From the IMG/VR virus record IMGVR_UViG_3300036772_000211, positions 1 through 64,000 of that record: a stretch of 64,000 nt of DNA; one strand, written 5' to 3'. Within the stretch, counting starts at the first letter, position 1, and each line of letters starts with the position of its first letter. This DNA is from a virus. Below, in pieces: positions 17,601 through 31,665 of the stretch. A program made the position numbers and the translations under genes. Below the pieces are notes generated by a model. It did no database searches, was not told the origin of the DNA, and saw only the letters and a program-made list of their open reading frames with translations.

Positions 17601-18447
17601 TGCCGAAGAAGATGTCGTGCTCGCTGCATTGGAACGCCGAGCGGGCCACGACGAAGTCGCCCGAGAAGCCGGCCTGGTAGGTGGTGTTGCAGACGCCGTG
17701 ATTGGGGCCGATGAACTGGCAGTCCCAGATCCAGTTATCCAGACTGTTGAAGTTGTAGGTCATGATGCCGACCACGTCGGGGTTGGTGTTCCCCGTGATC
17801 GGGTTCTTGCTGCCGTAGGGGTTCTGCGCGTAGTTGAAATAGCAGCGCATGATCGACGTCTCGGACGCGCCGAAGCCGTAGACGCCGAGCATCAGGCCCG
17901 CGGTTTCGGACTGGGGACCGCTCTGATTAGAGACGCCGAGCAGGTTGACGAAGCCGAGATCTTCGTAGCGGTTGCCGGTCGGAAAGTACTGATTGTCAGG
18001 TGTCGGCGCGCCGTCGATCGAGTGGTACGCATCCATGACCCCAACGTTGGCGATGCCGGCGCCGTCGAAGGTCAGCCGCGCCAGCCGCAACTGGGTGACC
18101 CCATTGTGGACGAGCATGATCGCGTCATTGGTCGCGCCGCTACTGTTGGGCGGCGGGCCAACCCACTGGATGACCGTGTCGTCTCTGGAGTGGCCGACGA
18201 TCATCGGGCCGATCAGCCCTTGCCCCACGGGTCGATACGCCGCGTCACCATAGCCGGTGCCCATACCCAGCGTGGCGTTCTGGTAGTAGCGGCCCGGGTT
18301 CACGTAGTACGCGCTGGGGAAGCCGGGTCGGGAGATGTTGGAGCACATCGCCTGCAGCGCCGCGGTGTCGGTCGCGCCGCTGGTGTCACCGCTGGGGCGG
18401 ACCTGGCCCCAGCTGGGAAACAGGTGCCCGTGGAACTCTTCCAGCAT
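14641..18447 (-). CDS. Large multidomain tail spike (beta-helix, Ig-like, lectin-like), 1268 aa
   Basis: Residues ~20-380 and ~400-720 are two beta-helix regions (repeated short strands, Asn/Gly turns). A beta-sandwich covers ~770-910, a short Trp-rich carbohydrate-binding-like module (WRGVYSLTNTYAPGDSVDFF) ~927-960, a bacterial Ig-like (Big_2) domain ~978-1062, and a concanavalin/LamG-like domain ~1070-1268. It probably binds or cuts surface glycans of the host. It is on the strand opposite other virion genes and convergent with the secretion-like cassette (16-bp gap). The ATG lies inside a perfect inverted repeat. Confidence 0.75.
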   Translation of the reverse strand: MLEEFHGHLFPSWGQVRPSGDTSGATDTAALQAMCSNISRPGFPSAYYVNPGRYYQNATLGMGTGYGDAAYRPVGQGLIGPMIVGHSRDDTVIQWVGPPPNSSGATNDAIMLVHNGVTQLRLARLTFDGAGIANVGVMDAYHSIDGAPTPDNQYFPTGNRYEDLGFVNLLGVSNQSGPQSETAGLMLGVYGFGASETSIMRCYFNYAQNPYGSKNPITGNTNPDVVGIMTYNFNSLDNWIWDCQFIGPNHGVCNTTYQAGFSGDFVVARSAFQCSEHDIFFGNLGANMSSRWNYSAPGAWRHVEAQAIGNFIASFTVQGCNIGGKAAEIIQLSNAGPIIMVDNLVGAHGTGGAVAIIAECPYSGDNSSGEQVGINNTYADGSPYFASAFTRTHSISDTFSIAWSDPGFPARPAEPPVVTRTIWDNQSSGGSIQSAINSAQPFDVIHIGAGQIGVSQTIQVPANFPLFFEGDSQYATNLVWSGSGTGPVFMLNLPSQVIFRNMQVQGASIADCFGTSGPNGGGGVIHIDGFANSQAAQVGGILANNLGGIRVDVINSSVSLNEQDGWPGTTGVYGISSENGSTVHVIFGTTGNGNGPFYRCYSGGTIACANIYAENSSRTSNLIAGGGNGTFSLDGGRIVGGAVNVDFSSFSGPSTISNYWLGESCPNVSIKVGNNQLLLGASFGSQAFPGPNPPYVIGGATQYAILNPRQQVDNSGQTTQIAEVSAGVSDQNAYVTSHLAPLRGIKPIDMQANPPANYTQIQFINVTTYNERLSFNLQATGGVVNPALSGNATGQGKASATLSVTGSAVRPRKAIQLMGQWQQSVAASIEFAMVSSSDHISALTGASPTLQISKAGGSFAAPAGTVSEVGGGWYIFHATAVDTNTLGDLAINVTATGGDPTALKEQIVAFNPNATTLGGISPGPYTVNWRGVYSLTNTYAPGDSVDFFGKQYICHTAAAAGVLPTDMSKFVPQDLVGEVVSMTIAPVSWPYPGKTGQLQIQGLFSDDTIRLGLNAYAVWSTSDATKVTVDQLGNYSCLAIGAATITAKLQGVSTTLVITVAHPMFGDGFAGEAVTFPLWGNHFTIDTGSTQTILTGTTPSADNVYAEMSVPPLGGAQAAIDTPGLAPISKIFRFSTVFRLSAWNVTGGACQIIQLVDGSGHGTEIYDFNGAWTIGVSAADGTFLQASLTFQSFAVGTWYQIDLLQDNSGAKSVYRVYVAGVLDTTLNDTTTGTPWQVTGGRLGPAMNPSQPGAGTCTVDYDWAEAYDN

Positions 18448-18475
18448 GCCTGACTGCTATTGTCAGGCATGCTGG
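18441..18475. repeat. Perfect 14-bp inverted repeat over the spike start codon
   Basis: CCAGCATGCCTGAC (18441-18454) and GTCAGGCATGCTGG (18462-18475) are exact inverted copies with a 7-base loop. The spike ATG (18447-18445) is within the left arm, so the hairpin would hide the start codon in mRNA. The arm also contains GTCAGGCATGC, which recurs at 57651-57661 and in variants near 38.3 and 40.5 kb, so an operator role is equally possible. Confidence 0.65.
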
Positions 18476-22625: not shown

Positions 22626-22666
22626 AATGTACTCCATACGTGCATGACTGTCAATAGGGTGCATGC
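22626..22666 (-). promoter_or_regulatory. Leaderless promoter with GCATG(C) operator sites
   Basis: TTGACA (22654-22649), 17-bp spacer, TACATT (22631-22626), then 7 bp to the ATG. The spacer contains GTCATGCACG, and a GCATGC (22661-22666) lies exactly 6 bp upstream of the -35 box. The same layout occurs at 23.3 and 24.7 kb. There is no Shine-Dalgarno. Confidence 0.75.
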
Positions 22667-22674
22667 CTGCAATA

Positions 22675-22893
22675 CTAGGTGCCGGCACGCAGGCTGAGTG
22701 ATTCGACCCAGCACCCTCTCCCGCTAGCAACGATCACGTTCGCGGTGAAGTAGCCGTTCTGGTAGCCCCAGAGTCGCCAGTGGCCGGCATGACGGTCCCA
22801 CGTGTCGACGCGATAGCCTCGCTTGCCCGACGTATAGACCAAGCGAAAGAGGCGGGCTGGCGGGCCGTGGACGGCATAGAGTTCATTGCTCAT
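22675..22893 (-). CDS. Hypothetical early protein, 72 aa
   Basis: ATG overlaps the upstream stop (ATGA). Aromatic and Gly-rich, likely a small beta-sheet protein (RVDTWDRHAGHWRLWGYQNG). Last gene of the operon starting at 23251. Confidence 0.55.
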   Translation of the reverse strand: MSNELYAVHGPPARLFRLVYTSGKRGYRVDTWDRHAGHWRLWGYQNGYFTANVIVASGRGCWVESLSLRAGT

Positions 22894-23045
22894 CGTGGTG
22901 CCTCCTGGCGGATCTTGGCGCGGTCGCGGCTGGCAGCCAGCCGATCGAGGGTGAGCAGGAACGCGCGGCTCGTGGTTGGCGTGTGGCGAGCCTTCGAGCG
23001 GCGTTGCTCGCGCCGCTCGCTCTTGAACTGGGGTGCTCGGCTCAC
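22890..23045 (-). CDS. Small highly basic protein, 51 aa
   Basis: GTG start overlaps the upstream stop (GTGA). Very Arg/Lys-rich (RREQRRSKARHTPTTSR), probably DNA- or RNA-binding. Overlaps both neighbours by 4 bp. Confidence 0.5.
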   Translation of the reverse strand: MSRAPQFKSERREQRRSKARHTPTTSRAFLLTLDRLAASRDRAKIRQEAPR

Positions 23046-23251
23046 CGCATCACCTTGCGCAGCGAGGCTGGCAAACGGTACTGCTGACCGCACGCCATGC
23101 AGTCCACCACCTGGCCGATCTGCTCGGGCTTGAAGTTATGCATCGAGAGCAGCTGGCTGCCGTCCTCGGTGCCGTCGTAGCTCTCGCCGCAGGTCGGGCA
23201 GTTGGCGTACATGGCGGCGATCTCTGTTCTGGCGCTCGGGATGCTTGGCAT
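23042..23251 (-). CDS. Zinc-ribbon protein, first gene of leaderless operon, 69 aa
   Basis: ATG 23251 lies 6 bp after the -10 box, so it is read from a leaderless mRNA. CPTCG near residue 18 and CMACG near 51 form a four-Cys zinc ribbon. Role unknown; likely nucleic-acid or polymerase contact. Confidence 0.65.
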   Translation of the reverse strand: MPSIPSARTEIAAMYANCPTCGESYDGTEDGSQLLSMHNFKPEQIGQVVDCMACGQQYRLPASLRKVMR

Positions 23252-23257
23252 GTATCC

Positions 23258-23298
23258 AAGATATAGCATGCGCGCATGCTTGTCAATACCCTGCATGC
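23258..23298 (-). promoter_or_regulatory. Leaderless promoter with 16-bp palindromic operator
   Basis: TTGACA (23286-23281), 17-bp spacer, TATCTT (23263-23258), 6 bp to the ATG. The spacer holds the perfect palindrome AGCATGCGCGCATGCT. A further GCATGC (23293-23298) begins 6 bp upstream of the -35 box. A repressor bound here would cover RNA polymerase contacts on both sides of -35. Confidence 0.8.
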
Positions 23299-23303
23299 AC
23301 GAC

Positions 23304-23942
23304 TTACTCACCCGGCGCGATGCAGACAAGGAAGTACGAGTGCCGCTTCCTGGCATGAACCTGCTGCTTGATGCGGCCTGTCGACGGGTGGTCTGGCCTG
23401 ACGACGACGACCAGATCCTTGATGTACCAGCCGCCGCGCTGCAGATAGCCGATGAGTTCGGCGTGGGTGAGCCACTGCCGATGGTTGCTGACCTCGTCCT
23501 GGCATTTGAGGATCAGCACGCCGCTGGGCCTCAGCACGCGCTGTGCTTCGCGAATGCCACCCTCGTACAGCGCCAGCACTGCCGCGTGGTACTTGGGACC
23601 AGTGCCGTCTACGAACTGCTCGTCTGAGTAGCGTTCCCGAAAATCACCGTGGCTGATCGGCACTTGGTGTGCCTGGTTATGGAAGCCTGACATGTACGGC
23701 GGATCGAGCACGAGGCAGTCAACGCTGCCGCAGACGTACGGCAGCTGGCGGAAGTCGGTGCCGGTGCGGATGTCGGTGGCCAGGAGGTCGTACGTGCCTG
23801 GTGGCACCTGCTTCCAGAACGTGCCACGCCCATAGGTCACATCAGCCACGCGCGCGCCGCGCGGCACGTGCAGGTCGAGAATGCGCTTGAACACTGGCGC
23901 GTTGTGCGCCACGTACGCGGAGTACAGCGGCTCAGTGTTCAC
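23304..23942 (-). CDS. DNA methyltransferase (adenine-N6 or cytosine-N4 type), 212 aa
   Basis: The AdoMet site VADVTYGRGTFW (residues ~32-43) and catalytic DPPY (near 80) are clear, and a late ILKCQDEV strand fits the Rossmann fold. The target sequence cannot be read from the gene. No matching restriction enzyme is seen, so it is a solitary enzyme, likely for evading host restriction or marking DNA. It overlaps the upstream gene by 4 bp. Confidence 0.8.
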   Translation of the reverse strand: MNTEPLYSAYVAHNAPVFKRILDLHVPRGARVADVTYGRGTFWKQVPPGTYDLLATDIRTGTDFRQLPYVCGSVDCLVLDPPYMSGFHNQAHQVPISHGDFRERYSDEQFVDGTGPKYHAAVLALYEGGIREAQRVLRPSGVLILKCQDEVSNHRQWLTHAELIGYLQRGGWYIKDLVVVVRPDHPSTGRIKQQVHARKRHSYFLVCIAPGE

Positions 23943-24700
23943 TTCGTGAACCCCTTCCTCGCCAGCCAGGCGGCGATGTCGTAGTCGCGGCTGCCCTTGA
24001 ATACGACGCTCTCGGCGCCGTTGTCGTACGCGACCTCCGCGGCGTTGTCCTGGGCAACGGTGGGCATGACTGGCGCGTCTTGTCGGTCCTGACTGACTGG
24101 GGCTGCCATCAGGTCGGCAGCCGTGGTGCCCTCGGGGAAGCGGAGGATGCAGACGGGGCCGATGCCGCGCGCCACGCTGTCAGCTGCCTTGAGGCGGCGA
24201 CCGCACCAGGCGCAGATGCCGTACAGTGTGCTGAAGCGGAGCGCTTCGTCGCGGCTCATCTTGCGGCCTTCGCTCAGAGCGACCGACTTCAGCTGCGGCG
24301 CGTACTGGTAGTCGCCCTGGCTGCGGTTGTTCTTGAGGGTTTCGGGGTCGATCTCCTCTGTCAGGCGGTAGCCCGAGATGTGCTGCCAAGCCATCGCGTA
24401 GCTGCCGGTCTTCTCAGCATTGGTCTTGATCCGGACGATGTCGCTGCTCGGGAGGACGTACACGCCGCACTCGGCCAGCATGGTCTGGAAAGCCATCCAG
24501 GCGTCGTAGCTGGCGTCGTCGGCGTCGCGGCTGGCCGCCACCATCACTGGCTGGTAACCGCTGCGCTGCTCGAAGTGAGCCGTGGTCGGGCAGACGAGGT
24601 GGGTGGCTGGATTGCCCTTCGTCCACTCGACGTTCTCGCGAGGCTGGATGCGGATGCTGCAGTTCGGGCAGACGCTGGAGAACTTCGCTTCGATGACCAT
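23939..24700 (-). CDS. Zinc protein with DUF6011-like domain, 253 aa
   Basis: ATG 24700 follows the -10 box by 6 bp (leaderless). N-terminal CPNCS...C zinc site, a helical middle, then CAWCGRRLKAADSVARGIGP-x-C (near residues 165-188), the hallmark of DUF6011-type domains in phage proteins. A C-terminal Pro-rich stretch is followed by DYDIAAWLARKG. Function unknown; cotranscribed with the methyltransferase. Confidence 0.65.
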   Translation of the reverse strand: MVIEAKFSSVCPNCSIRIQPRENVEWTKGNPATHLVCPTTAHFEQRSGYQPVMVAASRDADDASYDAWMAFQTMLAECGVYVLPSSDIVRIKTNAEKTGSYAMAWQHISGYRLTEEIDPETLKNNRSQGDYQYAPQLKSVALSEGRKMSRDEALRFSTLYGICAWCGRRLKAADSVARGIGPVCILRFPEGTTAADLMAAPVSQDRQDAPVMPTVAQDNAAEVAYDNGAESVVFKGSRDYDIAAWLARKGFTK

Positions 24701-24706
24701 GTACGT

Positions 24707-24747
24707 AGTATGAGGCATGCATGCATGCTTGTCAATACATTGCATGC
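24707..24747 (-). promoter_or_regulatory. Leaderless promoter with GCATGCATGCATGC operator
   Basis: TTGACA (24735-24730), 17 bp, CATACT (24712-24707), 6 bp, ATG. The spacer carries GCATGCATGCATGC (24715-24728), and GCATGC (24742-24747) lies 6 bp beyond the -35 box, the same spacing as at 22.65 and 23.29 kb. Confidence 0.8.
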
Positions 24748-24757
24748 ACGGGTTTCT

Positions 24758-24988
24758 CTATGCCGGCGAGGTGAGTTCGAGCATCCAGATCGCGAGCGCG
24801 TGCTTGCGCCCGCAGGCGGCACGCCAACCGATGAACCCGCCGTCGGCGTTCACCCAGCCATAGACGCTGGCGCAGCGCTTATCGCAGCCGGGTTGCGCAC
24901 ACCAGTACGCGTGGTCCAGGCTGCGCGGGCGCTTCATGCGCAGTAGCTCTTCGCCCGTGGCGAGCTTGTAGGTGAACAGGCGGGCCAT
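24758..24988 (-). CDS. Cys-containing small protein, 76 aa
   Basis: ATG overlaps the upstream stop. WCAQPGCDKRC (near residue 29) with a later AACGRKH suggests one zinc site. Last gene of the chain that begins at 26411; stops just before the next promoter region. Confidence 0.55.
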   Translation of the reverse strand: MARLFTYKLATGEELLRMKRPRSLDHAYWCAQPGCDKRCASVYGWVNADGGFIGWRAACGRKHALAIWMLELTSPA

Positions 24989-25185
24989 CAGGCTGTCCTG
25001 AACCCGATGTCGCTGGCCTGCCAGCTGGCGCCCTGGTCGTGCGAGACGTACAGCACGCCCGACAGCCAGCCCGTCATGAACGGGTGGCCGACGTAGCTGC
25101 TGGCGTCCTGAATGCAGGTCACGAGGTGGCCCGTGCGCAGGCGCACCGTGGTCGGCGTCTCGAAGCTGCCTTGCGTCGGTTTCAT
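24988..25185 (-). CDS. Hypothetical early protein, 65 aa
   Basis: ATG overlaps the upstream stop (ATGA). Beta-rich small protein (VRLRTGHLVTCI; GVLYVSHDQGASW). No family recognised. Confidence 0.5.
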   Translation of the reverse strand: MKPTQGSFETPTTVRLRTGHLVTCIQDASSYVGHPFMTGWLSGVLYVSHDQGASWQASDIGFRTA

Positions 25186-25487
25186 GCGATCTCCTGAGCG
25201 TGCAGCCGACCGTCTTCAGTGATACGGCAGGCGTACTTGCCGAGCTTCGGCTCCCATTCGATCCAGCCCTTACGCTCGAAGCTGCGCAGGGTGGACGCAT
25301 CGCCGCTGCCACTGGCCCAGAACACGAACGACTCGTGTCCGATGCTGAAGTATTGGCCCCGGCCGTCGAGTGACGGCAGCCACGCTGCGCCCTCGAACGC
25401 AGCGCAGCGCTGCTCGATCAGCAGCAGGAATTGATCGGCGCGCGTGAGCGCCCGCCCGTCAGCGTCCCGCGGTACGTTGCCGTTCAT
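25182..25487 (-). CDS. Possible winged-helix protein, 101 aa
   Basis: ATG 25487 overlaps the upstream stop (ATGA). The C-terminal ~45 residues (TLRSFERKGWIEWEPKLGKYACRITEDGRLHA) read as a helix plus wing of winged-helix proteins, the TEDGR end being typical. Possibly an early transcriptional regulator; partners unknown. Confidence 0.5.
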   Translation of the reverse strand: MNGNVPRDADGRALTRADQFLLLIEQRCAAFEGAAWLPSLDGRGQYFSIGHESFVFWASGSGDASTLRSFERKGWIEWEPKLGKYACRITEDGRLHAQEIA

Positions 25488-25948
25488 CGCGTGTACTCCG
25501 CGACATTGCACTTGCCCTGGCACTCGTCGCCATTCAGGCAGCCGTCGTGATCATTGGCGCCGCAGTGCGGGCACTCGACGGGAATCTCAGACTCCATTAG
25601 TTGCTCCTCTCGTTTCGCCGCCCACCACTCGCGTTTCCGCTGGGCGATCTTTTCTCGGCGCTCTGCCGACTGTGGCCCCAGGACCAGGCCGCGGGGTCCA
25701 CGTAGCCGCCCCTTCTGGGCGGCGTCTCTGGCGTTGATTAGGCGCGTGCCCAGGAACAGGTGGTCAGGCTCGAAGCACGGCGGGTTGTCGCACGTATGGC
25801 AGATCTCCATGCCCGCGGGGATCTGACCATGGATCGTGGCCCATACGAACCGGTGGACGTACTGGAGCTTGCCGCCGCGACCCCCAATGCGGATCTGGCC
25901 ATAGCCGTTCTTCGAACGCGCTCGAAGCCACTCGCGACAAGGCTTCAC
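25484..25948 (-). CDS. HNH endonuclease fused to a C-terminal Cys cluster, 154 aa
   Basis: GTG start overlaps the upstream stop (GTGA). Residues ~25-75 carry an HNH_3-like core: YVHRFVWATIHGQI, then EICHTCDNPPCFEPDHLFLGT. After a basic helix, the last ~38 residues (VECPHCGANDHDGC...CQGKC) hold a separate Cys-rich module starting at an internal Met. The HNH part may be a homing-type insertion fused onto a pre-existing small zinc gene. Confidence 0.7.
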   Translation of the reverse strand: MKPCREWLRARSKNGYGQIRIGGRGGKLQYVHRFVWATIHGQIPAGMEICHTCDNPPCFEPDHLFLGTRLINARDAAQKGRLRGPRGLVLGPQSAERREKIAQRKREWWAAKREEQLMESEIPVECPHCGANDHDGCLNGDECQGKCNVAEYTR

Positions 25949-26139
25949 GGGCGCGGCCGGAGCAGCGCCATAGCCTCTTCGACTGCGAGGCGGGTTTCAG
26001 CTTTGATGCGGCTCGGGGCCGAAGTATCAAAGCTGTTGAGGTAGAGGTCCGCGGCCTCTACGGCTGCGGCCAGCACCTTGACCATGTCGGTGATCTCGCT
26101 GAGCTTCTCAGCGGCGATGCGGCTCTGCTCGTTGTCCAT
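25945..26139 (-). CDS. Small helical protein, 64 aa
   Basis: ATG at 26139. All-helical (EQSRIAAEKLSEITDMVKVL). Stop overlaps the HNH gene start. No family recognised. Confidence 0.5.
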   Translation of the reverse strand: MDNEQSRIAAEKLSEITDMVKVLAAAVEAADLYLNSFDTSAPSRIKAETRLAVEEAMALLRPRP

Positions 26140-26141
26140 GA

Positions 26142-26411
26142 CTAGTTCCTCCGGTCGTTCGGGAATGACTTGGCGGCTCGGCCGTTGAGCACCGCGAGCG
26201 CGTCGCGCGCTACCTGCAGCACCTCGGGGGCCTGGTCGATCTTCGGTAGCTCGAACGCCATCACCTCAAGGAAGGCCCAGCAGTAGCGCCCCTCGGCGCC
26301 GGCCTTGCAGGAGCAGGGGTGCTCCATGTCGATCGGCGCCAGCGTCACGGCGTCGAGGTGAATCACGTGCGTCACGCCACCGGAGCGGCTCGGGCGAGTG
26401 AAGGTTTTCAT
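26142..26411 (-). CDS. Small protein with SWIM-like Cys motif, first gene of leaderless operon, 89 aa
   Basis: ATG 26411 lies 7 bp after the -10 box. CSCKAGAEGRYCWAF (near residues 33-47) resembles the C-x-C...C core of SWIM zinc fingers but lacks the usual final His. May bind DNA or protein. Heads a chain of six overlapping genes ending at 24758. Confidence 0.55.
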   Translation of the reverse strand: MKTFTRPSRSGGVTHVIHLDAVTLAPIDMEHPCSCKAGAEGRYCWAFLEVMAFELPKIDQAPEVLQVARDALAVLNGRAAKSFPNDRRN

Positions 26412-26418
26412 TACCGTC

Positions 26419-26447
26419 ATTATGGGGCATGCATGAATGCATGTCAA
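26419..26447 (-). promoter_or_regulatory. Leaderless promoter with GCATGCATG operator
   Basis: TTGACA (26447-26442), 17 bp, CATAAT (26424-26419), 7 bp, ATG. The spacer contains GCATGCATG and ATGCAT. No upstream GCATGC is present here, unlike three of the other promoters. Confidence 0.75.
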
Positions 26448-26494
26448 TAGGCAATCTCAGCGCCAGCGTCTACGAGGCGATCGAGCCTCGGCCA

Positions 26495-26701
26495 TTACCG
26501 CTCATCCACCGGCAGCACGCGCACGTCTTCGCGCTCGCCGGCCGGTCGACGGCTGTACTCTTCGTCGGTCGCATGAACGATCACACGCGTCATGTGAGTG
26601 CGGCAGTACGGGCGGTACTCACCGAACGGAACCGCGACTAGATAACGTGCAGCTAGCCCGCACTCACTGGCACCGAGGATGTATCGGCAGGTCGTCATCA
26701 T
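26495..26701 (-). CDS. Small Cys/His protein, 68 aa
   Basis: ATG overlaps the upstream stop (TGATG). CRYILGASEC near the start and YCRTH near 36 form a Cys3-His zinc-type site, a common build for phage early proteins. Acidic C-terminal half. Confidence 0.55.
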   Translation of the reverse strand: MMTTCRYILGASECGLAARYLVAVPFGEYRPYCRTHMTRVIVHATDEEYSRRPAGEREDVRVLPVDER

Positions 26702-26859
26702 CAGTTGGCCTCCTGTTGCTCGCGCAGCGCCTTCTCCTCGGCGTAGCTGCGCCGTATCTCGACGTACCACCATTCGCGCTCCTCGGCGGTCAGAAAATCC
26801 CAGTTCGGCGGGACGCGCCCGGTGCGCGCCCACGCCTCGATCCATTCCTTCAGGTCCAT
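26701..26859 (-). CDS. Short Trp-rich helical protein, 52 aa
   Basis: ATG at 26859 shares a base with the upstream stop; its own stop overlaps the next start. The sequence starts MDLKEWIEAWARTGRVPPNW and ends with a charged helix. Function unknown. Confidence 0.55.
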   Translation of the reverse strand: MDLKEWIEAWARTGRVPPNWDFLTAEEREWWYVEIRRSYAEEKALREQQEAN

Positions 26860-27425
26860 CAGTTGGCCTCCTCGTGGATGGGATCGGTTTTCTCATTGCC
26901 GCAGCTGCCACACATGCTGACGATCTCTGGCCGACCGAACAGACGGTTCTGGCCATTCACCCAATCGATGTCCCGCTGCGGCGCCCTGGTGAACGTGTGC
27001 GGGTGGTAGGGGCGGCAGGTTGAGCAGTAGTCGCTGGTCTTGCTGGCGCGGCCGTCGCACGGTCGACCGTTCCAGTCGCTGCCGGCGCAGTGCTTGATCG
27101 ACGCCTGCTTGGCGGCTTCCTTGGCTGCCTTCGCGGCCTGGCGCTCCGACTCCTTGAGAGCGGTGGTCTGGTAGCCAGCGACGCGCTCGGCGCACTTGGC
27201 CAGTCGGCGAGCCTCGAAGGCTGGGTTGCAGGTTGGGCACTGTGTCTCGGCCTGGTCAGCGTGGTAGCCGTCGAGGTGCTCGTTCTCGTAGCCAGCGCTA
27301 TCGAAGCAACCGCTGCACAGGCGACCCGTCTGGCTGTCCTGGCGATCGGCCCAGCTGCGAACTCCGCAGAACTCGCAGACCTTGGTGCCGCGGTTGTCGA
27401 GTCCGAATCGGGTGGGGTTCTGCAT
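26859..27425 (-). CDS. Multi-Cys zinc protein, first gene of leaderless operon, 188 aa
   Basis: ATG 27425 is 6 bp after the -10 box. At least four Cys pairs: CEFCG, CSGC, CPTCN, CSTC near residue 142 and MCGSCG near 175. A Lys/Ala-rich helix lies in the middle. Probably binds several zinc ions and nucleic acid or protein. No specific family recognised. Confidence 0.6.
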   Translation of the reverse strand: MQNPTRFGLDNRGTKVCEFCGVRSWADRQDSQTGRLCSGCFDSAGYENEHLDGYHADQAETQCPTCNPAFEARRLAKCAERVAGYQTTALKESERQAAKAAKEAAKQASIKHCAGSDWNGRPCDGRASKTSDYCSTCRPYHPHTFTRAPQRDIDWVNGQNRLFGRPEIVSMCGSCGNEKTDPIHEEAN

Positions 27426-27431
27426 ACACGT

Positions 27432-27460
27432 AGTATCGCTCATGCATGCATGCATGTCAA
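27432..27460 (-). promoter_or_regulatory. Leaderless promoter with 16-bp CATG repeat operator
   Basis: TTGACA (27460-27455), 17 bp, GATACT (27437-27432), 6 bp, ATG. The spacer is almost entirely CATGCATGCATGCATG (27441-27456), a perfect palindrome reaching into the -35 box. Confidence 0.8.
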
Positions 27461-27480
27461 TAGGTTTCTAGAATGAGATC

Positions 27481-27536
27481 GGCAGGCCGGCAGCCGTGAG
27501 AACGCCAATCCGCGCGTGCTAGCCGCCGGCCCTGCC
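27481..27536 (-). repeat. Inverted repeat after the 28.6-27.5 kb operon, possible terminator
   Basis: GGCAGGCCGGC (27481-27491) pairs with GCCGGCCCTGCC (27525-27536), leaving one unpaired base and a 33-base loop. It lies immediately after the stop at 27538 on the minus strand. No U-run. It fills the only gap between this operon and the promoter at 27460. Confidence 0.4.
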
Positions 27537-27537
27537 G

Positions 27538-27732
27538 TCATGGCCGCGACTTGACGACGCGACCCGTGAACGACACCAGCACGGTGTAATCGTTGTCGCC
27601 CTTCTGGACGCTGTGCTGGCAGCCCTGCAGTAGGTTCAGCGCCAGGCGGTACGCCTCATACGGCGACAGCTTCAAGTCGATCAGGTCGCCGTGGTCGGCG
27701 TGGTTCGAGTCGAAGATCACGGTGTGAGACAT
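27538..27732 (-). CDS. Hypothetical early protein, 64 aa
   Basis: ATG overlaps the upstream stop (shared base at 27732). Alternating strand-helix-strand (TVIFDSNHADHGDLIDLKLS, then a helix, then YTVLVSF). Its pattern resembles the neighbour at 28222, suggesting related small folds. Confidence 0.5.
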   Translation of the reverse strand: MSHTVIFDSNHADHGDLIDLKLSPYEAYRLALNLLQGCQHSVQKGDNDYTVLVSFTGRVVKSRP

Positions 27733-28028
27733 CAGCTGGCCACCTCCGCGGGCGTGACCATGTCCTCCAGCAGCTTGACGCGGTCAGCTGGCAGGTTGCG
27801 AGCGGTCACGATGGCCACGGGCTTCCTGTCGGAGTACCAGCCCCCCATCCCGTTGATGTTCACCTCGGTGCCGTCTGGGAAGGCGAGCACGTAGTGTGGC
27901 GTGCGGTCGGCGCGGAACCGGCCGCGGAAGCCGGACTTCGCGCGAGCGAGCGCCTGGTCGGCGGAAGCTGGGTTGTCACGGTCGTTGGAGAAACCCCAGG
28001 ACTGGTCGGTGATGGCGAGGTAGATCAC
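27732..28028 (-). CDS. Hypothetical early protein, 98 aa
   Basis: ATG overlaps the upstream stop (ATGA). Mixed alpha/beta small protein with WGFSNDRDNP near the start and YVLAFPDGTEVNINGMGGW in the middle. No family recognised. Confidence 0.55.
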   Translation of the reverse strand: MIYLAITDQSWGFSNDRDNPASADQALARAKSGFRGRFRADRTPHYVLAFPDGTEVNINGMGGWYSDRKPVAIVTARNLPADRVKLLEDMVTPAEVAS

Positions 28029-28225
28029 GAGTGCTCCTCTGGTCCGATGCGGACCCCTTCAAGGCTGAACCAGCCGATCAGTTCGTTCAGCGTGTCCATA
28101 CGCACTTCGAGTGTTCGGGCGTAGCGGGCAGTCGCGGTGTGCTCGTATTCCCGCTGGAGCCGATCGCGGCGAGAGACAAGCTCTTCGATGACGCCCGCCT
28201 TACCGGCGATGATGGTGACGCTCAC
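28025..28225 (-). CDS. Small helical protein, 66 aa
   Basis: GTG start overlaps the upstream stop (GTGA). Mostly one long helix pair (VIEELVSRRDRLQREYEH; RTLEVRMDTLNELIGWF). Possibly dimerising by coiled coil. Confidence 0.5.
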   Translation of the reverse strand: MSVTIIAGKAGVIEELVSRRDRLQREYEHTATARYARTLEVRMDTLNELIGWFSLEGVRIGPEEHS

Positions 28226-28416
28226 GACTTCACTCCGTTGGCAGCCAGGTTGCCGACCAGGCGCGCGGCCTGGTCGCGGGTCATGCGGACCTGAAACACC
28301 GACTCTTTGTCCGCGAAGCTGATCTCTAGCTCGTCGGCGCTGATCGTTCGGGCGCCGATCGCGATGTTGCTCTGCGCGGTGTTGAGCCAGACGGTCTGGC
28401 TGGTCGGCAGGCTCAT
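28222..28416 (-). CDS. Hypothetical early protein, 64 aa
   Basis: ATG overlaps the upstream stop by one base. Beta-hairpin then helix (ELEISFADKESVFQVRMTRDQAARLV). The build resembles its neighbours at 28416 and 27538, so these may be diverged copies. Confidence 0.5.
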   Translation of the reverse strand: MSLPTSQTVWLNTAQSNIAIGARTISADELEISFADKESVFQVRMTRDQAARLVGNLAANGVKS

Positions 28417-28646
28417 CAGTTGGCCTCCGGCTCCGGGGTGTTGACGAGAACTTCCTGCAGCTGACGGATGATCTCGGGCAGCTGGTCACGGGTGAAGGTC
28501 AGGCGCACGAGCGCTGGCGAGTGCGAGTCCTGGGTCGGCGTCTCGCGGAACCCGTACGAGCGGATCGTGGTCTGACCGCTGACTGGCTGGTAGTTGACGA
28601 CGGCGCCCGTCGAGAAGAACTTGTAGCGGGTGGGGGTCTGCTGCAT
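28416..28646 (-). CDS. Hypothetical early protein, first gene of leaderless operon, 76 aa
   Basis: ATG 28646 is 6 bp after the -10 box GATAAT. Beta-rich front half and a helical end (LVRLTFTRDQLPEIIRQLQEVL), like the 28222 product. Divergent from the RHH gene at 28704 with a shared control region. Confidence 0.55.
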   Translation of the reverse strand: MQQTPTRYKFFSTGAVVNYQPVSGQTTIRSYGFRETPTQDSHSPALVRLTFTRDQLPEIIRQLQEVLVNTPEPEAN

Positions 28647-28706
28647 GCATGCATTATCGCTCATGTTTGACTATGCTGTCAAGAGCGTATATGGTGGTCA
28701 TGCATG
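28643..28706. promoter_or_regulatory. Divergent promoter pair with GCATGC sites at both start points
   Basis: Leftward: TTGACA (28682-28677), 18 bp, GATAAT (28658-28653), 6 bp, ATG 28646. Rightward: TTGACT (28667-28672), 17 bp, TATGGT (28690-28695), 8 bp, ATG 28704. The promoters overlap face to face. GCATGCATGCAT (28643-28654) and CATGCATG (28699-28706) lie over the two start sites, so one repressor could silence both. Confidence 0.75.
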
Positions 28707-28904
28707 AACAACATACGAGCTTCCTATGCGCCCGAGCGCATGATTCAGGTGAGAAACCTCGACCCACAAGTCAAGCGCGAGATGCGGTTGGAATGTGCTT
28801 ACCGTGACCTGACGCTTGGTGAGCTAATCAACGAGATCTGGCGAGAGCACATCGACGCGAATGGGTCGCTATGGGCGCGGGAAGATGTGGCAGCAGCTAG
28901 CTAG
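28704..28904 (+). CDS. Ribbon-helix-helix regulator, 66 aa
   Basis: A short strand (RMIQVRNLD) is followed by two helices (VKREMRLECAYRDLT and LGELINEIWREHI), the MetJ/Arc RHH build. Likely a dimeric DNA-binding regulator that controls its own divergent promoter. Its second half is clearly related to the C terminus of the next gene's product. Nearly leaderless start. Confidence 0.65.
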   Translation: MNNIRASYAPERMIQVRNLDPQVKREMRLECAYRDLTLGELINEIWREHIDANGSLWAREDVAAAS

Positions 28905-29262
28905 ACAGCTGCTCTATGAACGCGACCGCGGTCTATGCTGCTTCTGCGACCTGCCCGTCCCATTCGAGACGATGCATATAGACCACAGGCAACCGCGCGC
29001 GCTCGGCGGCGGTAGCGATGCGGGCAACCTTCGCGTCGCGCATCGTGGCTGCAACATTGCTGCCGGCAACGAGGTGGCTATGAAGCGACGCGCTATGGGT
29101 ATGCCGCCCGTCACCGTCACGCTGTCTATCTATCGGTTGCACGCGTCACTGATTCACGCGATGCGAGTCGAATGCGCCGCGCGCGACATCCCCATATCGC
29201 AGCTGATCGCCGACATGTGGCACACCTACCAGTCGAGCGGGGCGTCCGCGGTCAGGTCATAG
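28861..29262 (+). CDS. HNH endonuclease fused to an RHH DNA-binding domain, 133 aa
   Basis: ATG 28861 overlaps the RHH gene; ATG 28885 is another option. Residues ~25-72 hold a zinc-type HNH: CCFCDLP, then IDHRQPRALGG, then NLRVAHRGCN. From ~82 a second domain (VTVTLSIYRLHASLIHAMRVECAARDIPISQLIADMW) repeats the upstream RHH pattern, sharing MR-ECA-RD, LI and W positions. So a duplicated RHH unit is attached to a nuclease, giving sequence-specific targeting. Ends before the integrase terminator. Confidence 0.7.
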   Translation: MGRYGRGKMWQQLARQLLYERDRGLCCFCDLPVPFETMHIDHRQPRALGGGSDAGNLRVAHRGCNIAAGNEVAMKRRAMGMPPVTVTLSIYRLHASLIHAMRVECAARDIPISQLIADMWHTYQSSGASAVRS

Positions 29263-31302: not shown

Positions 31303-31419
31303 CCTTATACGTGGGAGTTGACAGCACTCTAACGCGTGCATGACTACGCGTCAATCGAATGCACACTCTGTTGACAATCGAGCATTGCAGTCAGTCACGC
31401 CAGACGCTAAGATTCTGTC
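31303..31419. promoter_or_regulatory. CI/Cro-type divergent control region
   Basis: Leftward: TTGACG (31354-31349), 17 bp, TAGAGT (31331-31326), start near 31319, giving a ~17-base leader for the repressor. Its spacer contains GTCATGCACG, as in the 22.6-kb promoter. Rightward: TTGCAG (31385-31390), 17 bp, TAAGAT (31408-31413), 6 bp, ATG 31420, so the Cro-like mRNA is leaderless. A further TTGACA is at 31371-31376 with no good -10. Confidence 0.65.
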
Positions 31420-31665
31420 ATGCAAAACAAGGCTGTGGGGGCCAGGATCTCAGAGCGACTGGAACTTTTCGAGCGCGATCAGCGCTGGCTGGCGCGACGC
31501 GTTGGAAAGAGTCCGTCGCTGATCTCTCGATGGATGGATGGCAGCCGACAGATGACGCCGCAGGAGCTACGCGAGGTAGCCATCGCGCTGCACATGGAGC
31601 CGACCGCTCTGTTCGACGCGCTGTTCGATTCTGCCGACAAGGCTGAGCAGGAGAAGGTGGCGTGA
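31420..31665 (+). CDS. Cro-like HTH regulator, 81 aa
   Basis: Residues ~12-60 are a compact HTH (DQRWLARRVGKSPSLISRWMDGSRQMT), with an acidic tail. It starts the rightward early operon and overlaps the next start (GTGA). Small size and divergence from the repressor fit a Cro-type switch protein. Confidence 0.7.
   Translation: MQNKAVGARISERLELFERDQRWLARRVGKSPSLISRWMDGSRQMTPQELREVAIALHMEPTALFDALFDSADKAEQEKVA

Follow-up and report, generated by a model that had tools for sequence, protein, structure and literature searches.

The C1 repressor of phage P1 is described as acting at 22 operators dispersed over the genome (PMC8546580), and accounts of mycobacteriophage L5 and of the cluster A phages list more than twenty 13-mers (PMC9283540) and 20 to 30 sites (PMC6550527), respectively, with a specificity of the regulator sites that, as these two texts put it, differs between relatives. 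Here, we analyzed the early region of an uncultivated virus, IMG/VR record IMGVR_UViG_3300036772_000211, in which short self-complementary boxes of the type GCATGC accompany the promoter-like sites of the leftward early genes. The analyzed window comprises bases 1-64000 of the 64,960-base record. Judging from sequence, these boxes appear to form a real operator regulon, nonrandom and functional-looking, which would be a new example of the multi-operator repressor strategy of phages.

Early promoters carry boxes in a fixed register

A scan for consensus σ70 promoters between 18.3 and 32.0 kb returned eight promoter-like sites (P1 to P8; Table 1), compared with 1.7 expected from shuffled sequences, and all eight contain a CATGC-type box, which lies in the spacer or covers the start site. 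A looser regular expression, applied to the whole window, found eight leaderless promoter-like sites, seven of them with a box; the boxless one, at +7891, has a weak -10 and lies within an open frame. The loosest scan gave 18 rows, namely, P1 to P7 and 11 others, among which 10 have a -10 with only 3 of 6 matches and 3 contain CATG. A further site, P9, falls below the threshold of the consensus scan. On the minus strand, P1 to P5 are all built from TATTGACA, a spacer of 17 bp, and a -10 resembling TAnnnT, with an ATG following 6 or 7 bases later; in P6, the ATG follows 6 bases past the -10. Because the start codons sit so close to the -10, P1 to P6 fit leaderless mRNAs. For leaderless bacterial mRNAs, a TANNNT signal some 12 bp ahead of the start codon is described (PMC3160421).

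The original prediction had placed GCATGC or TGCATG repeats at every leaderless early promoter. This holds for the eight sites of the consensus scan, with the correction that the repressor promoter P8 is boxed yet not leaderless, and both examples quoted there are present (AGCATGCGCGCATGCT at 23265-23280 and CATGCATGCATGCATG at 27441-27456). The range given for the regulon, 22642-28706, does contain boxes but is too narrow, since they extend to the repressor and cro-like starts at 31.4 kb.

Table 1. Promoter-like sites and candidate box-binding proteins, in window coordinates
Feature	Position	Strand	-35 and spacer	Boxes	-10	Start codon and remarks
P1	22626..22666	-	TTGACA 22654-22649; 17-bp spacer	TCATGC 22647-22642, GTATGG 22639-22634; extra GCATGC 22666-22661	TACATT	leaderless ATG 22618
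P2	23258..23298	-	at 23286	GCATGC 23279-23274, GCATGC 23271-23266; extra GCATGC 23298-23293	TATCTT	ATG 23251
P3	24707..24747	-	at 24735	GCATGC 24728-24723, GCATGC 24720-24715; extra GCATGC 24747-24742	CATACT	ATG 24700
P4	26419..26447	-	at 26447	GCATTC 26440-26435, GCATGC 26432-26427; no upstream box	CATAAT	ATG 26411
P5	27432..27460	-	at 27460	GCATGC 27453-27448, GCATGA 27445-27440; no upstream box	GATACT	ATG 27425
P6	28643..28682	-	TTGACA 28682; 18-bp spacer	GCATGCATGC 28652-28643, over start site	GATAAT	ATG 28646
P7	28667..28715	+	TTGACT 28667		TATGGT 28690-28695	promoter of ribbon-helix-helix (RHH) gene; divergent from and overlapping P6
P8	31326..31354	-	TTGACG 31354	GTCATGCA 31344-31337, in spacer	TAGAGT	promoter of helix-turn-helix (HTH) repressor; longer leader, not leaderless
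P9	31385..31424	+	weak, TTGCAG	GTCATGCA 31417-31424, over start codon	TAAGAT 31408-31413	cro-like promoter; leaderless ATG 31420
RHH protein, 66 aa	28704..28904	+				weak PHROG and Pfam RHH matches, weak model; favored candidate binder
HNH nuclease with C-terminal RHH-like domain	28861..29262	+				HNH by Pfam; paralogous to the RHH protein at 28.7 kb
HTH (Cro/C1-type) repressor, 186 aa	30742..31302	-				profile matches; rival candidate binder
Cro-like HTH protein	31420..31665	+				profile matches

Each of the spacers of P1 to P5 holds two boxes, at spacer positions 2-7 and 10-15, with their centers 8 bp apart in all five cases; the two bases between them are, from P1 to P5, AC, GC, AT, AT, and AT. 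In P1, P2, and P3, a third GCATGC begins exactly 12 bp before the -35; P4 and P5 have no such box. Rather than repeats varying freely from one unit to four, as had been proposed, the arrangement is thus a fixed register of two positions, and a longer ATGC repeat becomes apparent only where AT stands between the boxes. P2, with GC between its boxes, and P4, with GCATTC as its first box, both interrupt the ATGC repeat and yet hold the two box positions, so that selection seems to act on the boxes rather than on repeat length. For the same reason, we consider free microsatellite variation a less probable origin of the pattern.

The summed mismatch to GCATGC over the boxes of P1 to P5 is 5 of 60, and in 200,000 random draws of five places the sum was never below 27, a figure that overstates the case, as the consensus was taken from P1 to P5 themselves. 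The count of GCATGC-NN-GCATGC pairs with at most one mismatch is a fairer measure: these occur at five positions of the window (23266, 24715, 26427, 27440, and 27444), all within P2 to P5, against a mean of 0.94 and a maximum of 4 in 100 dinucleotide shuffles. Pairs allowed up to three mismatches are not enriched in the window (91 versus 84.9), nor are the single motifs GCATGC (36 versus 48.9 by shuffle) and TGCATG on both strands (52 versus 58.7). The promoter stretches, 388 bases altogether, contain 13 of the 36 GCATGC; when they are masked, 23 GCATGC remain against a Markov expectation of 23.4, and 6 ATGCAT against 7.4, so lone boxes elsewhere can be taken as background. The regulon is marked by the pairing and the place of its boxes, not by their abundance. 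Restriction avoidance was rejected as a reason for the boxes, because the number of GCATGC outside the promoters matches expectation.

Boxes also lie over the start sites of both P6 and P7. These two promoters interlock with their -35 hexamers in TTGACTATGCTGTCAA (28667-28682), which makes their simultaneous occupancy by polymerase unlikely. TTGACTATGCTGTCAA is the sole TTGAC-N6-GTCAA of the window and has the same outline as a palindrome of another phage record, described below. An imperfect dyad of 26 bp (28690-28715), centered on ATGCAT, covers the start codon of the RHH gene and is the longest dyad among the promoters. The interval between the repressor and the cro-like gene has two copies of GTCATGCA, one within the P8 spacer and the other across the start codon of the cro-like gene, and P1 and P8 have AGTCATGCACG in common.

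The phage, its likely host, and its relatives

From the tyrosine integrase, the HTH repressor, and the divergent Cro-like gene encoded in the window, along with its primase-like protein, large terminase, and tape-measure-like protein, we read the virus as a temperate tailed phage. No cultured phage close to it turned up in the collections searched. With the terminase as query, the genome_contigs collection yielded one contig of a Chloroflexi metagenome-assembled genome, 7.3 kb long and 62% identical over the matched part, which carries four lone GCATGC and no spacer boxes; on the basis of this one short contig, a Chloroflexota host is likely. A search of 400 genomes of this phylum for the operator pattern with one mismatch allowed gave matches in four, each single. 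One of these, L069, looks like a promoter but is isolated within a stretch of 47% G+C, and we read it as chance.

The same terminase query found 56 loci in viral_contigs, three at 54 to 62% identity and the others at 28 to 39%. Among them, G001 is the sole long syntenic relative (63,248 bases, 54% terminase identity), with part of the gene set kept. Besides an integrase, it encodes an HNH-RHH fusion and a small protein that is RHH-like by eye, with no Pfam match, and whose gene is divergent from an early operon with a leaderless-looking start. The RHH gene of the window is likewise divergent from the early genes, which lends some support to the RHH protein as binder. In each of the two phages, the HNH-RHH fusion (L062:13548-13943 in G001) has a small RHH or RHH-like gene next to it and the integrase nearby. 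In G001, TGCATG lies over the presumed starts of the repressor, the cro-like gene, and the early operon (L062:11963, 11870, and 14134) and includes the start codon in two of the three; we take this as no more than a hint of a diverged operator set. Queries of viral_contigs with the DUF6011-type protein, the integrase, the HNH-RHH fusion, and the RHH protein retrieved no relative, and the primase-like protein retrieved one distant locus. In the phage collection, neither the RHH protein nor the HTH repressor had a tblastn match, and a DNA search with the early region gave three records, with fragments at HNH genes only.

Proposed mechanism and candidate regulator

According to the mechanism that we propose, the leftward early genes would be driven by at least six σ70 promoters, and one phage regulator would bind the box pairs cooperatively and shut the early operons together. 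The bound protein would exclude RNA polymerase through the spacer boxes of P1 to P5, the start-site boxes of P6, P7, and P9, and the spacer box of P8. Repression might be graded by the number and quality of boxes: P2 and P3 have three perfect ones, P4 and P5 each have a pair with a single mismatch, and P1 combines an upstream box with a degenerate pair. The RHH protein, expressed from P7, could also regulate its own synthesis at the 26-bp dyad that covers its start.

That the mode of action is repression we infer from the optimal 17-bp spacing, the -35 TTGACA, and the boxes between -35 and -10, where a bound protein would block polymerase. MerR-type activation involves spacers of 19 to 20 bp, and with 17 bp and TTGACA, P1 to P5 are unlike promoters activated in this way. 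The original prediction of a multi-site repressor regulon thus stands as far as the operator regulon goes, which is supported by position, register, and promoter-only box pairs, with repression as the part added by inference.

MetJ boxes are spaced 8 bp apart. The RHH regulator omega is described as binding heptad repeats through cooperating dimers (PMC4803016). As tandem boxes at 8 bp suit cooperating RHH dimers and the 26-bp dyad covers the start of the RHH gene itself, the RHH protein is the most likely binder on this analysis. Most of the 25 Foldseek matches to its model are RHH proteins (CopG, Arc, AmrZ, MatP, and antitoxins), and it aligns with the C-terminal part of the HNH nuclease at 29% identity over 42 amino acids (E value of 2e-7 for that pair). 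A phmmer search against PDB sequences gave no RHH match. The whole reading, in which the boxes are bound by one phage regulator, most likely the RHH protein, that silences the early operons together, has in our judgment an even chance of being right; its cooperativity, its transcription starts, and its RHH binder are predictions.

Several findings weigh against it. The RHH protein has weak profile support (phrog_1016 at an E value of 0.0014; Pfam RHH_10 at 0.042, below the cut-off), its model is poor (predicted local distance difference test score [pLDDT] of 65) even though it has two helices after a strand-like stretch, placed as in RHH proteins, and all of its Foldseek matches are weak (E values of 1.3 to 9.4). 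The CATG of start-site boxes is partly supplied by the ATG itself, which makes the boxes of P6, P7, and P9 weaker evidence than those of P1 to P5. G001 has neither TATTGACA nor spacer boxes, an operator pattern fitting all of P1 to P5 was absent from viral_contigs, and a second operator pattern was also unmatched there. Motif comparison with relatives had been suggested as a check on the regulon, and it came out partly against the reading, the spacer boxes being missing from G001 and the operator pattern from the collections searched; this lowers the reading and does not refute it, because immunity operators often differ between heteroimmune relatives.

Alternative explanations

The main rival keeps the same regulon and gives the boxes to the HTH repressor at 31 kb or its Cro-like partner, a single dimer of which would read AGCATGC-NN-GCATGCT as one dyad of 16 bp, in the manner of classical immunity operators. 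The P2 spacer indeed holds a perfect 16-bp palindrome, AGCATGCGCGCATGCT, and that of P3 is nearly so; GTCATGCA occurs at both the repressor and the cro-like starts, and the repressor passes the Pfam HTH_3 cut-off. C1-type proteins, however, usually have their best operators in the repressor/cro interval, which here contains single boxes only and no two-box operator, and the lone upstream boxes of P1 to P3 are without dyad spacing. We regard this assignment as possible, though doubtful.

Alternatively, promoter cassettes could have been duplicated within a mosaic early region, carrying along an ATGC microsatellite with no dedicated regulator. P3 and P5 do have much of a cassette in common (CATACTACGTACATG and GATACTACGTGTATG), and a gene-junction sequence is also present four times, but in P1, P2, and P4 the two box positions persist without an uninterrupted tandem repeat, the boxes of P6 to P9 are placed differently relative to the promoter, and the window has no near-perfect pairs elsewhere, all of which makes this explanation unlikely. 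Positive control by an activator or a host factor, or control by methylation through the phage DNA methyltransferase (23304-23942), is in our view quite improbable: the methyltransferase gene lies within the regulon and the boxes, being palindromic hexamers, resemble many methylation sites, but a consensus -35 with 17-bp spacing needs no activator, and GCATGC elsewhere is neither avoided nor enriched.

A bolder form of the preferred reading would make the 66-amino-acid RHH-type protein, and not the C1-type repressor, the global early silencer on the tandem spacer boxes, with the neighboring HNH-RHH fusion using a copy of its DNA-reading domain to cut at related boxes, for example, in incoming phage DNA. 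We give this very little credence; the predicted DNA-contacting strand residues differ between the two RHH domains in their alignment, which speaks against a common target.

Other sequence features

The gene-junction repeat GAGGCCAACTGATG (minus strand; one copy varied) lies at 26699, 26857, 27730, and 28414, where it gives three early proteins the ending EAN and puts a Shine-Dalgarno-like GGAGG before an overlapping start. A long inverted repeat (CCAGCATGCCTGAC and GTCAGGCATGCTGG), terminator-like but lacking a T run, lies downstream of the early genes at 18441-18475. The sites CTCGAG, GAGCTC, and AGGCCT are absent from the window, where 29.6, 7.3, and 14.1 copies are expected, while G001 has 70, 24, and 4; this strong avoidance suggests restriction pressure from the host.

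Across the 45,403 bases examined in another record, G002 (IMGVR_UViG_3300037462_000153), the 16-bp palindrome TTGACGNNNNCGTCAA occurs six times without a mismatch (L071:636; L004:5932, 8761, 17644, and 19992; L072:17726), with a mean of 0 in 30 mononucleotide shuffles. Near copies are also present, and several of the palindromes embed the -35 of a promoter-like site. This appears to be a parallel case, a separate multi-operator regulon of a second uncultivated phage.

Comparison with known systems

A literature search found no paper joining RHH proteins with phage early promoters, and among papers on GCATGC with phage repressor operators, judged by title and start of the abstract, none concerned phage immunity. 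Conserved inverted-repeat operators at many early promoters are found in phage phiC31, with a sequence, a length, and a repressor type unlike those of the present boxes. What the window offers is a readable regulon for a temperate phage, with promoter-like sites, leaderless starts, and a defined candidate operator.

As in the description of P1 C1, the proposed arrangement has many dispersed sites in one phage for one repressor, but the P1 operator appears there as a 17-bp asymmetric sequence, in contrast to the paired self-complementary hexamers found here. The likeness to L5 and cluster A is again that of many sites for one phage regulator. Their stoperators, in the accounts cited above, are asymmetric 13-bp sites that have an orientation and for the most part lie outside promoters; since the present boxes are self-complementary and their pairs with at most one mismatch are confined to promoters, we do not class them as a stoperator system. 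With MetJ, the likeness lies in arrays of short boxes, there bound by cooperating RHH dimers and of another sequence. The resemblance to omega is again that of short boxes of 7 to 8 bp set in arrays, with RHH binding as a candidate property here, and the omega heptads are given as NATCACN (PMC4803016), unlike our boxes. Should the RHH protein indeed bind, the phage would have a phage-wide silencer of the omega/MetJ type, beside or replacing a C1-type repressor.

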